IMG/VR virus record: IMGVR_UViG_3300045135_001374 | Location: 1 to 33,193 of that record | Direction: 5' to 3' (one strand) | Length of the DNA stretch: 33,193 nucleotides | DNA from: a virus | In this document: piece after piece, positions 854-11,300 of the stretch | Position numbering within the stretch: the first letter of the stretch is position 1 | Layout of the letters: each line of letters starts with the position of its first letter | Program-made: the position numbers and the translations under genes | The notes under the pieces: model-generated | What the model saw: only the letters and a program-made list of their open reading frames with translations | Databases searched by the model: none | Told to the model about the DNA's origin: nothing

Positions 854-1233
854 TATATTCTCTTAATATAGTTAAAACATTGACTTCCCTGGATAAAACC
901 TAGTTTAGCGAATTCTTTCTCTAGAATCAAGTTATTATCAAAGATAGACATAGCATATTTATATCCAAATCTATGAACTTCTTCACACACATATTTCAAT
1001 AACTTAGACAGTAACTCCCTATCCTTTACTTTAGGATTACTTACTACCCAATCTATAACAGCTATATTACTATTAGATAAGTATAACCACATCGCATAAT
1101 AACCAACCCCTTCTTTTTCTACTATATAACCCGTCTCAGGAAATATATCATTAGGTGGCACCTGCCAATTTCTTCTTGCTTTATACCATGAGTTAATAGT
1201 TTCTAAATCCTTTTCCTCTATTCTCCTAATCAT
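853..1233 (-). CDS. GNAT-like N-acetyltransferase (126 aa)
   Basis: The start at 1233 (MIRRIEEKDLETI) is chosen over an upstream ATG at 1278 because GGAG lies five bases before it. The first strand and helix (IRRIEEKDLETINSWYKAR), the central IAVIDWVVSNPKVKDRELLSKLL and the C-terminal EFAKLGFIQGSQCFNYIKR follow the GNAT order: beta1-alpha1, the acetyl-CoA strand and helix, then a 'kLGF' strand. The pyrophosphate loop is not canonical (PKVKDREL), so catalytic competence is unproven. The gene overlaps the terminase stop by eight bases. Such genes often sit beside terminases in environmental podoviruses; the substrate is unknown. Confidence 0.75.
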   Translation of the reverse strand: MIRRIEEKDLETINSWYKARRNWQVPPNDIFPETGYIVEKEGVGYYAMWLYLSNSNIAVIDWVVSNPKVKDRELLSKLLKYVCEEVHRFGYKYAMSIFDNNLILEKEFAKLGFIQGSQCFNYIKRI

Positions 1234-3823
1234 AAACACTCCAACTTGAATTAGCTTGATAAGTTCTACCCACACCATACTTTTCCTTTAACGCTTTGTT
1301 AGGTAAATTAAAAGCAAAAGTTAATGCTAGTGCATCACCTAAGTCTGGAGATTTACCATATCTCTCTTTTATCTTCTCCTTAGGTTCTATCTTTAACTTA
1401 CCTGCAGAATCAAATGTGTAATGTGGTGCTTGTAAGTCTGCATGTAATTCATCATTATCTTCTATCTTAACTGGACCATTGTTTAACCAATCTTTTATTC
1501 TATCCCACATCTCCGCTCTCTTGTTAAGATATCTCTCTGCATCATCAGCTTTCTGACCAAAATTAACTGGCACTACCACATTAGTATATCCTAACTCTTT
1601 ACATCTATCATATATCCCAGCACCTATACCACCAACATCCACAAATATCTTCTCTGGTTTATAGTGATTAATCATTTGCACTAATCTACCTACTACCTCC
1701 ATAGTATCTAATCCTTGAAAGATCTCATGTCTATGCTGTACTCTACCAGATCTAAATACTATAGCAGTCCTATCCTTTCCCTTCCAAGCAGGATCTACAC
1801 CTATAACTAATTGATTATCCGCATGAACATTCTCACACTTCCTAGCAGACATAATAGTTTTTGGTTGTATTAAACTATCTTCACTAGATGATTGGAATGC
1901 TTCTAATGCTGTTGCTGGGTACTCTTGCTTAAATTGCCACTCACCACCTACAAAATTGGATATTTTATTACGTCTCCACACTATCTGACTATCATCCAAC
2001 TGATATAAATTCTTATATTTATACTCCTCATCAGTTAACTTGAAATCATCAGGAACACCTAATCTGTATTCATCTTGCCAAAACCATGGAACAAATATTA
2101 GTTGGTATTCACTATTCCCATGCATAGCAGCCATAGACATCTTATGAAACATATTACCTATTCCATTAGCGGTAGATTCTAATATAACCTCCGTCCCTTT
2201 CATATCTGGAATAGTTTGCATTATACCTGTACTAATCTCATTAGCATTACTCCAGAAAGCACACTCTGAATTTGATACCACACAGGCTGTAGTTTGATAG
2301 TTATGATCTTTGTGATCTACTTCTATGTCCCATACCTTTTCGATTTTCCTTGGCTCTATGGATTTAACTTTACAGAATATTTGACCATTCTTTACCATTA
2401 TCTTTTCTACTCTCCTTACCTCCATTTGATTAGATGAGACTCCATCTCTATACCTCCTTAAGGTATTACCAAACATCTTTACATTATAAATATCTTTAGT
2501 TCGCTCCCCATACCTATATCTTTCAGATTTTCTGATGTTAGCAGATCCCAATTCTAAAGCTAAAATTATACGCTGGATTTGTCTTGATATCTTCTCATGT
2601 ATAGAGGGTGCTGTTATTCTATCATGTTGAGTCTTACTCCCATCACCATCTAAATATCCTCTCAACACTCCCCATAAGAATTCTTTATTTGTACGAAAGA
2701 ACCACTCTGGTATCCGTTTATCACCTACCCTTCCACAAATATCATTAATAGCGGTACTAAGAAACTTACCGTAAATCTTAGTTCTTCCCCTATTAGTCCC
2801 CTCATCTTTATAGTGCTTTACCGAAGTAGGTAAACCCTTAACCCCTTCTAAAGCCTTGTAGATAAATGTCTCATCTTTATGATAAGCTAATTCCATATAA
2901 CCTAATCCTGATTTTATATGACCTTCCGCTAGATAATATCCTATGAAATAACCAAACTCTTTATTAAGGTCAAAATCATAACCCTCTATGTGCTTAGACC
3001 CCCCTCCCTGTGGTCTCTCTTTATTCTTTAAAGACCAATGGTAAGATTTAATAGAGTTATCTAGCTCTATCTTCGGTAAAGCCACATAGTCGTTTCTAGT
3101 TAAATCTTTTAATTCTTTATACCCATCAATAGTTAAAACTTTATGATCTGCTGTCAAATATATTGCCTCACCACTAACCCATACATCTAATTTATATGTC
3201 TGCTTCTCTCCTGTATATATCTTATTAGATACGGGTGCTATTTTACCACTGGAAGTCATCACCTCATCCCCAATCACTATATCTCCCATAGACTTACTAG
3301 ATCCATCAGCTAGAACTATAAGACTATCTTCACTTAAACATCCATGTAATAGCTGTATAGTATCAGATCTACCTATATTACCACTACCTGCAGTACCAAC
3401 CGCATAACCAGAATCTAATTCATCAAAATACAATTCCTTAGCATTTGATACTCCAGTACTAGGTCTAAATAAATCTGGAACATTATCATGATATCGTTGC
3501 ACCAATCTATATAAATTATCAGTAGCATCTTTTAAATGAGTTACTATAAAACACTTAGTACCTAAGCTATGGGTAACCTGATGATAGAATCTAGCTGCTA
3601 CATATGTAGAACATCCTTGTTGTCTTCCTTTAAGAATTAAAGCTCTTACCTTACCAGTAGCTTTTCTTTGTTGTTCTAACTTTTCGTGAATATATAACTG
3701 AGCTTTATTAAGTAAGAATGGCTTTACATCACCATCCTTTGTTCTGATCTTCAAGCATTTTTCAGCATATAAAGGGAAGTTTCTTTTAAGCTCTAAATAT
3801 AAATCCCTATGCTCTTGCTTCAT
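1226..3823 (-). CDS. terL: Terminase large subunit with in-frame intein (865-aa precursor)
   Basis: ATP-driven DNA packaging motor and headful nuclease. The ATPase half has a Walker A-like KGRQQGCST (residues 65-73) and a Walker B region TIQLLHG...SECAFW that is split by the intein. The nuclease half has VIGVDPAW (D677), IFVDVGG (D729) and SPDLGDALAL (D827, D830), the expected RNase H-like acidic residues. Removing intein residues 162-518 leaves 508 aa, a normal TerL length. The ATG overlaps the upstream stop as ATGA. The small subunit lies 1.5 kb upstream rather than adjacent, separated by small membrane proteins and a non-coding block. Confidence 0.96.
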   Translation of the reverse strand: MKQEHRDLYLELKRNFPLYAEKCLKIRTKDGDVKPFLLNKAQLYIHEKLEQQRKATGKVRALILKGRQQGCSTYVAARFYHQVTHSLGTKCFIVTHLKDATDNLYRLVQRYHDNVPDLFRPSTGVSNAKELYFDELDSGYAVGTAGSGNIGRSDTIQLLHGCLSEDSLIVLADGSSKSMGDIVIGDEVMTSSGKIAPVSNKIYTGEKQTYKLDVWVSGEAIYLTADHKVLTIDGYKELKDLTRNDYVALPKIELDNSIKSYHWSLKNKERPQGGGSKHIEGYDFDLNKEFGYFIGYYLAEGHIKSGLGYMELAYHKDETFIYKALEGVKGLPTSVKHYKDEGTNRGRTKIYGKFLSTAINDICGRVGDKRIPEWFFRTNKEFLWGVLRGYLDGDGSKTQHDRITAPSIHEKISRQIQRIILALELGSANIRKSERYRYGERTKDIYNVKMFGNTLRRYRDGVSSNQMEVRRVEKIMVKNGQIFCKVKSIEPRKIEKVWDIEVDHKDHNYQTTACVVSNSECAFWSNANEISTGIMQTIPDMKGTEVILESTANGIGNMFHKMSMAAMHGNSEYQLIFVPWFWQDEYRLGVPDDFKLTDEEYKYKNLYQLDDSQIVWRRNKISNFVGGEWQFKQEYPATALEAFQSSSEDSLIQPKTIMSARKCENVHADNQLVIGVDPAWKGKDRTAIVFRSGRVQHRHEIFQGLDTMEVVGRLVQMINHYKPEKIFVDVGGIGAGIYDRCKELGYTNVVVPVNFGQKADDAERYLNKRAEMWDRIKDWLNNGPVKIEDNDELHADLQAPHYTFDSAGKLKIEPKEKIKERYGKSPDLGDALALTFAFNLPNKALKEKYGVGRTYQANSSWSVYD
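2270..3340 (-). mobile_element. Intein with LAGLIDADG homing endonuclease inside terL
   Basis: This segment encodes residues 162-518 of the TerL precursor (357 aa). It starts at Cys162 (CLSEDSLIVLADG, block A) and has block B TADHKVL (T224, H227). Two LAGLIDADG motifs follow, FGYFIGYYLAEG (290-301) and LWGVLRGYLDGDG (383-395), then block F VWDIEVDHKDHNYQ (498-510). It ends VVSN518 before Ser519, the +1 nucleophile. It splits the conserved HG/SE motif at Walker B, so unspliced protein should be inactive. The penultimate residue is Ser517, where most inteins have His. The endonuclease motifs are intact, so it may still be a mobile element. Confidence 0.95.
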
Positions 3824-7029: not shown

Positions 7030-7824
7030 TCAGTTTAAACCCTCGATTTTCTTATAAACCTCTTCGGTGTTATCTGATCCATCAAGCGGGAAATAAGAAT
7101 TTTCAAAGTCATTTAAAGCCTGTAATCTGCTGTAGGATATACTATCAGAGCCATTCAACCTTCTCTCAAATGCTATCGGTACCACTCTATTGACCAGGGT
7201 TCTAACCTCGCTGTATTCCTCCTGTGGATCTTGTATGCTGATAGAATTTTTATACTCGTCCTCCCAACATCCTTGATTCAACCAAGTGGTAGGGTGCTTC
7301 CAGTAAGAGCAGTCTACCCCTCTAGCCTCCTTGTACTTCCTCACACCTTCGATAATGTTAGCATGATCTGTTTTCTTCAAAGCAGATTCATAAGCCTTCA
7401 AAGCTTTTGGTTTTGATTTCTTGTAATCATACAACTCCCAAAACTCTTCAAACAATTTTTTTGTTTTAGTTTTTTTTATATCATTATCATTATCATTTTC
7501 ATTATCATTAGGGGTTAGCTTGGGGTTAGCTTGGGGTTTTTTAGGGGTTTCTTTGGGGTTTTTTTCCTTTCTTGGTCTACCTCCTAATTTCCCGTATTCC
7601 TTACCTTTACAACCATTTTCATACTTCTTATGATTAGCCTCTAGTTGTGGTCGTATTAATGCGAAAATTGACCGTGAAATAGGTGATAGTTCTTGTAGGT
7701 TTTTTTCATAGTTTTCTTCAAACGAAAACCCCAAAATAACCCCTAAAATTTCCAACTTATTTTCGTCAGGTAGTTCCTTAATTGCTTCGTAAAAACTTTT
7801 GTAGAATATAAAACTTTGCTTCAT
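7030..7824 (-). CDS. Replication initiator/replisome organiser, lambda-O-like architecture (264 aa)
   Basis: The start at 7824 is chosen over 7893 because GAGG lies five bases before it. The N-terminal domain (1-80; FYKSFYEAIKELPDENKLEI... SPISRSIFALIRPQLEANHK, then EYGKLGGRPRK) matches the DUF6291-type domain of phage replication proteins. A low-complexity linker (about 84-123, with repeated Asn-Asp) follows. The C-terminal domain (FEEFWELYDYKKSKPKALKA... YWKHPTTWLNQGCWEDEY) is a common ending of phage replisome organisers. The linker DNA carries five iterons and an AT-rich tract, as lambda O does. It presumably melts the origin and recruits the host helicase, since no helicase or loader is encoded here. 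Confidence 0.8.
   Translation of the reverse strand: MKQSFIFYKSFYEAIKELPDENKLEILGVILGFSFEENYEKNLQELSPISRSIFALIRPQLEANHKKYENGCKGKEYGKLGGRPRKEKNPKETPKKPQANPKLTPNDNENDNDNDIKKTKTKKLFEEFWELYDYKKSKPKALKAYESALKKTDHANIIEGVRKYKEARGVDCSYWKHPTTWLNQGCWEDEYKNSISIQDPQEEYSEVRTLVNRVVPIAFERRLNGSDSISYSRLQALNDFENSYFPLDGSDNTEEVYKKIEGLN
7455..7565. other. Predicted replication origin: five 11-bp iterons plus AT-rich tract
   Basis: Five consecutive 11-bp units run from 7511 to 7565: GGGGTTAGCTT twice, then GGGGTTTTTTA, GGGGTTTCTTT and GGGGTTTTTTT. The 11-bp period is not a multiple of three, so it cannot come from a protein repeat, and it matches one helical turn. Next to it (7455-7510) is an AT tract with several ATCATT units, fitting an unwinding element. 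Both lie in the initiator's linker. Confidence 0.75.
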
Positions 7825-7843: not shown

Positions 7844-7910
7844 GGGGAGTGGTGCAACGGATTAAAGACCACAACCCCATAATAATATCTCATATAAGCA
7901 ATTCCGTTGC
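7844..7910 (-). promoter_or_regulatory. Possible pseudoknotted 5' leader of the replication initiator
   Basis: In the minus-strand transcript, GGGG-UU-GUGGU (7878-7868) pairs with ACCAC-U-CCCC (7853-7844), leaving a 14-base loop. That loop holds UCCGUUGC (7861-7854), the exact complement of upstream GCAACGGA (7910-7903). The structure ends about ten bases before the GAGG ribosome site. Confidence 0.5.
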
Positions 7911-10484: not shown

Positions 10485-11300
10485 ATGTTTAAATGGAAAA
10501 AAAATAAGGGCAACTGGAACTCAGGCGACTGGAACTCAGGCGACTGGAACCCAGGCGACTGGAACTCAGGCGACAGTAACTCAGGCGACTGGAACTCAGG
10601 CGACTGGAACCCAGGCGACTGGAACTCAGGCAACAGTAACTCAGGCGACAGTAACTCAGGCAACTGGAACTCAGGCAACAGTAACTCAGGCAACAGTAAC
10701 TCAGGCGACTGGAACTCAGGCAACAGGAACTCAGGCGACAGGAACTCAGGCAACAGGAACTCAGGCTACGGTAACTCAGGCTACGGTAACTCAGGCGACT
10801 TTAACTCAGGCAACAGGAACTCAGGCAACAGGAACTCAGGCAACAGGAACTCAGGCAACAGGAACTCAGGCTACGGTAACTCAGGCGACTTTAACTCAGG
10901 CTACTGTAACTCAGGCTACGGTAACTCAGGTATATTTAACAGTAACCAGCCTACGTTAAGGCTTTTTAATAAAGACTCTAATTTGAATTATAATGATAAG
11001 ATAATACAACAAGCTCTCGACATAATATCTAATGTTAAACCTATCTTAACTTGGGTAGATTCAGATAGTATGACTACACAAGAGAAAGAAGAACATCCAG
11101 AACATAAAACCACAGGTGGATTTCTTAGATCAAGAGATATGGAGTATTGTTGGAAAAAATCTTGGGAGAAGATGTCTGATGAAGATAAAGAGACTATAAC
11201 CTCTTTACCAAATTTTAACGCTAAGATATTTAAAGAAATTACAGGAGTAGATGTTACTAATAATCTTGATCCTGAGGATGAAATAGAAGTAGAAAGATGA
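10485..11300 (+). CDS. XNXGX pentapeptide-repeat protein with conserved C-terminal domain (271 aa)
   Basis: The start at 10485 is chosen because GAGG lies five bases before it; a GTG at 10479 is in the same frame. After a basic start (MFKWKKNKG), residues 10-149 are 28 tandem pentapeptides of the form [D/N/Y]-x-N-S-G, matching the XNXGX class (Pentapeptide_2) rather than the A(D/N)LXX class. Residues about 155-271 form a separate domain with TWVDSDSMTTQEKEEHPEHK, TTGGFLRS and LPNFNAKIFKEITGVDV. I recognise this as a recurring C-terminal module on phage repeat proteins, of unknown function. It lies between ERF and SSB, so a DNA-related role is possible. Confidence 0.85.
   Translation: MFKWKKNKGNWNSGDWNSGDWNPGDWNSGDSNSGDWNSGDWNPGDWNSGNSNSGDSNSGNWNSGNSNSGNSNSGDWNSGNRNSGDRNSGNRNSGYGNSGYGNSGDFNSGNRNSGNRNSGNRNSGNRNSGYGNSGDFNSGYCNSGYGNSGIFNSNQPTLRLFNKDSNLNYNDKIIQQALDIISNVKPILTWVDSDSMTTQEKEEHPEHKTTGGFLRSRDMEYCWKKSWEKMSDEDKETITSLPNFNAKIFKEITGVDVTNNLDPEDEIEVER
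10512..10931 (+). repeat. 28 tandem 15-bp units (pentapeptide array)
   Basis: Each unit is [GAT]AC-NNN-AAC-TCA-GGC. The last three codons are invariant except for two CCA and one final GGT. Codon 1 is only GAC, AAC or TAC; codon 2 is only TGG, AGT, AGG, GGT, TTT or TGT. Trp and Ser units dominate the first half; Arg, Gly and Phe units dominate the second. GC content is well above the rest of the genome. Confidence 0.97.

Follow-up and report, generated by a model that had tools for sequence, protein, structure and literature searches.

A candidate replication origin within the linker-coding part of a DUF6291 phage gene

Described initiators and the DUF6291 locus

In phage lambda, the iterons and the AT-rich tract of the origin occupy the centre of the initiator gene, with the O protein binding the iterons and unwinding taking place on the AT-rich side (PMC7466680). 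The Rep protein of pSK41, which belongs to the RepA_N group, is composed of an N-terminal DNA-binding domain, a linker encoded by the ori boxes and a variable C-terminal domain that contacts the primosome (PMC5703833). In the PLE replicons of Vibrio satellites, the DNA-binding domain co-varies with the origin while the C-terminal domain is kept, and modules are exchanged (PMC8263062).

The window, i.e. the whole stretch of DNA that was analysed, is a virus record of 33,193 bases with a 127-bp terminal repeat, yielding a circle of 33,066 bp. The neighbourhood of the locus consists of genes of a short-tailed phage, encoding an Sf6-type small terminase, a large terminase, Gp157, Erf, SSB and RuvC, together with podovirus-type tail and head-tail proteins. 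The large terminase gene (1226-3823, minus strand) is split by an intein with a LAGLIDADG endonuclease, and a 15-bp repeat of 27.7 copies at 10516-10930 (plus strand) encodes pentapeptide repeats. The putative initiator gene is located at 7030-7824 on the minus strand and encodes 264 amino acids; its open reading frame opens at 7893, and the ATG at 7824, homologous to the start in relatives, is the probable start codon.

In the encoded protein, a low-complexity linker joins the DUF6291 domain to a C-terminal region. DUF6291 (PF19808; 7570-7815, minus strand), the proposed iteron-binding domain, scores 68.9 bits against a cut-off of 27.2 (E-value 4e-19) and is the sole Pfam match of the whole protein, with no lambda O or RepA_N domain detected. 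It is predicted to be all-helical, and its AlphaFold model is confident, with a pLDDT of about 95 in the body. Searches of the PDB with DUF6291, by profile and by fold, returned nothing above noise, and a literature search found no paper naming the domain. The C-terminal region (7030-7476, minus strand) matches phrog_270, phrog_9327 and phrog_9474 and resembles the C-terminal parts of phage replication initiation and primosomal proteins; relatives with the same C-terminal part exist, and the region is proposed to recruit a helicase or the primosome. These matches bear out the first-pass annotation, which had described a DUF6291-type initiator with two domains.

The window phage shares with ori-lambda the arrangement of iterons and an AT-rich tract inside the initiator gene. 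However, the DUF6291 N-terminal domain has no lambda O match in Pfam, the sites are 11-bp direct repeats with a core of 4-6 bp, the window phage encodes no recognised helicase loader, and DUF6291 loci fall into several core classes tied to a short protein arm. The origin-inside-initiator layout, the AT-rich tract and the two domains of the earlier description are confirmed, but the term lambda-like holds for the layout only, given the lack of an O-type match and the kind of repeat. With pSK41 Rep, the locus has in common the order of N-terminal domain, ori-encoded linker and variable C-terminal domain, whereas the RepA_N domain is undetected by sequence and the DUF6291 model lacks a solved structural match. 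The co-variation of binding domain and origin and the module swapping reported for PLE are also common to DUF6291 loci, but PLE uses a RepA_N domain, iterons of about 30 bp and an intergenic origin, and the accessible part of the source does not describe an arm-core code (PMC8263062). The DUF6291 protein would thus work in the manner of lambda O or a RepA_N initiator, yet neither its sequence nor its predicted fold places it in one of these groups.

The features of an iteron-type replicon, i.e. directly repeated sites, regular helical spacing and an adjoining AT-rich element, are all found here. The block at 7479-7560 is very likely a replication origin, with the DUF6291 gene product as its initiator. 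This would give a probable function to DUF6291, a domain found in phages and prophages of Bacteroidota, Clostridia, Proteobacteria, spirochaetes and others, and, if the reading is true, the origins of metagenomic phages could be located from sequence alone.

The iteron array and the AT-rich tract in the window

Five GGGGTT cores, reading AACCCC on the coding strand, form an array at 7511-7560 (plus strand) and start at 7511, 7522, 7533, 7544 and 7555, with a period of exactly 11 bp. On the coding (minus) strand they translate as N-P, T-P, K-P, N-P and T-P, using all three frames. An AT-rich ATCATT tract (TATCATTATCATTATCATTTTCATTATCATTA; 7479-7510, plus strand; TRF period 6), proposed to be the unwinding element, directly adjoins the last iteron; it reads AATGAT on the coding strand and encodes NDNENDNDND. 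The positions agree with the five GGGGTT-led units of exact 11-bp period beside ATCATT repeats that had been noted before, and so does the placement of the block in the linker between the two domains, which is the origin-inside-initiator layout.

The periodicity could merely reflect a repetitive, low-complexity linker (NP/TP/KP and N-D repeats) together with codon bias and slippage of repeats, as the tract is in frame with its 6-bp unit, the amino acids of the linker are themselves repetitive, and recoded linkers also favour lags of 11 and 22 to some degree. However, a period of 11 bp shifts the reading frame from one unit to the next, and the core letters are kept exactly in all three frames. 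GGGGTT never occurred twice in a row at this spacing in 60 random 33-kb sequences matched for dinucleotides (longest run 1, compared to the 5 observed). When the linker was recoded synonymously 200,000 times according to the codon usage of the phage, runs reached at most 3 cores (six times) and never 5. The array is given neither by random sequence nor by synonymous recoding, in agreement with the earlier argument that selection on the protein is insufficient to account for a period out of step with the codons. Furthermore, the cores use the rare proline codon CCC, which codes for 13 of the 286 prolines elsewhere in the phage; among relatives, AAT and GAT dominate solely in the tract in GC-rich genomes, and a single spacing is found across three core classes. 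An origin of the array as a by-product is already largely refuted and scarcely credible. The only other constant-spacing hexamer array of at least four copies in the window is the in-frame 15-bp protein repeat at 10.5-10.9 kb.

Additional cores are found outside the array. Two cores 11 bp apart at 7727-7743 (minus strand), in the opposite orientation and inside the part coding for DUF6291, are possible extra binding sites, and among relatives of the AACCCC class such cores are more common in the DUF6291-coding zone than far from the gene. A single core at 7873-7878 (minus strand), upstream of the probable start codon, is a possible autoregulatory site. The presence of these cores, and the frequent autoregulation of iteron initiators, would fit a different reading, in which the cores are operators bound by the DUF6291 protein as a regulator, or by another phage protein, that represses or times the gene, and not an origin. 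However, upstream cores are present in 3 of 36 AACCCC-class loci, and autoregulation through them was rejected because they are not conserved. The array moreover adjoins an AT-selected tract within the coding region, where an origin is more to be expected than an operator, the gene often precedes that of a replicative helicase, and the C-terminal parts are replication-initiator-like. Operators in place of an origin are distinctly improbable.

The first-pass annotation had expected the cumulative GC skew to turn near 7500. The minimum of the detrended skew lies near 5.2 kb, and the skew tracks gene orientation; a replication arm signal is also absent from the third-position skew of the window phage. 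GC skew was rejected as origin evidence, as it follows gene orientation and carries no arm signal.

Conservation among relatives and the proposed mechanism

Alignments of the N-terminal domain retrieved about 400 loci from viral contigs and bacterial genomes, which were grouped into 184 clusters at 85% DNA identity; a search with one N-domain sequence retrieved no relatives from viral contigs. In 146 clusters, the linker is followed by an alternating asparagine tract, with the array adjoining an (AATGWW)n tract. In the 60 bp before the tract, the best DNA period is 11 in 68/146 and 22 in 33/146 of these clusters (101/146 for either), while the remaining 45 have another best period, some with inverted core pairs and a 24-bp period. 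Self-similarity at lag 11 exceeds that of synonymous recodings with a mean z of 2.45, and 105 of the 146 clusters exceed 2; this null is conservative, since the amino acid sequence is itself shaped by the DNA repeat. The 11-bp period is a family trait and not a peculiarity of the window phage.

Three core classes occur among the relatives, i.e. AACCCC, AACC and AAGC. A spacing of 11 bp is the most common in each of them (90, 168 and 136 cases, respectively), and the cores occupy all three reading frames in every class (73/81/75 for AAGC). The last core is usually 5 or 7 bp from the tract, and the junction CTAATG recurs together with the (AATGWW)n tract. Spacing and junction are maintained while the unit sequence changes, which is what had been proposed as a check of the origin interpretation and which lends it support. 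In loci with a GC content of 45% or more, the asparagine codons of the tract are AAT over AAC by 126 to 10, compared to 146 to 130 elsewhere in the genes (p 1e-17), as determined with an anchor that carries no bias towards AAT. The AT-rich DNA itself is therefore selected.

Deviating arrangements were also observed. Inverted core pairs such as AACCCCnnnGGGGTT are found in 26 of the 146 clusters (L019, L046, L068, L069, L184, L354, L357 and others), several with a 24-bp period, and represent a second geometry of the same sites that is unexplained by a simple row on one DNA face. Three loci from gammaproteobacterial phages (L405, L406, L407) have a (GATAGT)n-like tract in place of (AATGAT)n; they carry AACCC cores as well as an inverted pair. 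Still other cores occur in a small number of members (L100, L109, L122). DUF6291 proteins without array or tract (L036, L042, L353, L366, L380, L384, L388, L391, L392) are mostly from Bacteroidota genome contigs and share a different, EQEVEQMRNDEKW-like C-terminus; as some of these chromosomal proteins have neither element, DUF6291 does not in every case go together with an origin inside the gene that encodes it.

A replicative or primase helicase follows the DUF6291 gene in five of eight annotated records. It is directly downstream in Vibrio phage 1.240.O, Shewanella phage ZP9, phage PJN03 and a Bacteroides finegoldii plasmid, and one small gene away from the initiator in Aeromonas phage 4_L372X; in Riemerella phage GRNRAP2, the next gene is a weaker primase/helicase match. 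In all eight records, the DUF6291 gene is labelled as hypothetical or by its DUF name alone. The C-terminal parts match known initiators and DnaD-like helicase loaders. In the window phage, searches for a DnaB helicase, a DnaC-type loader and a family A polymerase found none, in line with the earlier statement that this phage seems to encode neither polymerase nor helicase. For the helicase or loader gene expected beside a lambda O-type initiator, the window phage gave no DnaB or DnaC match, and a helicase adjoins in several relatives. Among 49 larger virus records, some of them possibly incomplete, a DnaB-type protein exceeded the cut-off in 12 and a DnaC-type protein in 2, and many members may, like the window phage, rely on the host helicase.

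In the preferred reading, 7479-7560 is a theta-type origin that lies inside the gene for its initiator, in the part coding for the linker, and the linker protein would be mainly a tether shaped by the DNA code. As 11 bp is about one helical turn of DNA, the DUF6291 domain and its arm would bind the iterons head-to-tail, with one protomer per turn on one DNA face. Binding would strain and open the adjoining AATGAT tract, and the variable C-terminal domain would bring in the replicative helicase, supplied by the host in the window phage and often as a phage-encoded DnaB in relatives.

Association of arm and core, and exchange of modules

The arm is a short segment between the DUF6291 body and the linker and is of three kinds: long (GxxxxGxxGGRP), short (KGGRP or KGGA) and without GG. 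The window protein has a long arm (GCKGKEYGKLGGRPRK; 7567-7614, minus strand), the type that accompanies AACCCC iterons. Counted by cluster, a long arm occurs with CCCC in 36 of 38, a short arm with CC in 61 of 63 and the absence of GG with GC in 36 of 41, i.e. 133 of 142 in total, a link that the first-pass annotation had missed. All 32 CCCC arrays retrieved by a search with the DNA pattern alone, which ignores the protein, lie in DUF6291 genes and accompany a long arm. Of the 118 CC arrays, 75 are in DUF6291 genes, and the arm is short in 74 of these. In total, 106 of these 107 arrays agree with the arm; some of the loci belong to phages that also contributed to the cluster counts. AACC pattern matches outside DUF6291 genes are mostly one recurring, antisense-looking stretch of another gene (LLKTSTETEPKDNLMVLSV...) and were set aside as coincidence. 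The pairing suggests a readable protein-to-DNA code, in which the arm would pick the core that is read (CCCC by the long arm, CC by KGGRP and GC without GG). It makes the iteron choice of an initiator directly testable through an exchange of about 15 residues.

That the arm causes iteron specificity is fairly likely. The association might instead reflect hitch-hiking, which is compatible with an origin: the arm directly adjoins the array, cassettes do move as a block, and arm and core could recombine as neighbours with the arm not reading the core. The tree of the 66-residue body gives little support for many independent events: for the CCCC class, its well-supported branches hold four independent core changes, three accompanied by the arm, none against and one neutral, too few for an independent-pairs test of the link to be decisive. 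However, the association spans many phyla with nine exceptions in 142, and in relatives the arm is conserved at the protein level while its synonymous codons are free. In addition, one lineage (L018, L021, L028, L035, L039, L045, L050, L063, L098-L100) has a nearly constant body combined with four types of arm and cores, which change in concert. A further point against hitch-hiking is a single case (L493, a 198-aa ORF) of a DUF1376-like N-terminal domain, below the Pfam cut-off, which combines a GGRP arm with AACC cores and hints that arm plus cores are portable between initiator types. Hitch-hiking is rather unlikely on balance. A DUF1376 search of the genomes holding DUF6291 loci gave no matches, and neither did its control, and among about 25 Lin1244_N genes of Bacteroides relatives that were compared, lag 11 was best in one and no GGRP/AACC arrays were seen.

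If the arm decides the core, N-terminal domain, arm and iterons would therefore move between phages as one specificity cassette. Between the Riemerella phages GRNRAP2 and CRP19, a stretch of 350 bp is replaced (L404:3972-4321 vs L409:2936-3288), whereas the flanks are nearly the same, with an identity of 99.4% in the 2.9 kb upstream and of 98.4% in the 3 kb downstream. This stretch begins shortly ahead of the start codon and ends at the first base of the AATG tract, and the clean replacement exchanges the DUF6291 domain for another, 39% identical one and the repeats for other repeats. The C-terminal regions of relatives form ten or more groups without detectable mutual similarity, and most of the larger groups occur with several core classes. 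From the swap and these mixed groups it follows that the N-terminal domain and the iterons form one cassette and the C-terminal part another. Whether DUF6291 is a new initiator fold in which an exchangeable glycine-rich arm sets a discrete iteron code under diversifying selection, possibly driven by rivals that use origin-directed DUF6291-T5orf172 nucleases, is evenly balanced in our judgement.

Nuclease domains were observed at several loci. In one (L125:1477-2307), the initiator carries an inserted HNH endonuclease domain that separates the KGGRP arm from the iterons. In two others (L041:2430-3071 and L066:315-902), the gene directly upstream of the initiator encodes a fusion of a diverged DUF6291 and a T5orf172 (GIY-YIG-like) nuclease; the layout of these fusions resembles that of Odn, the origin-directed nuclease of phage ICP1, with a different DNA-binding domain (PMC8263062).
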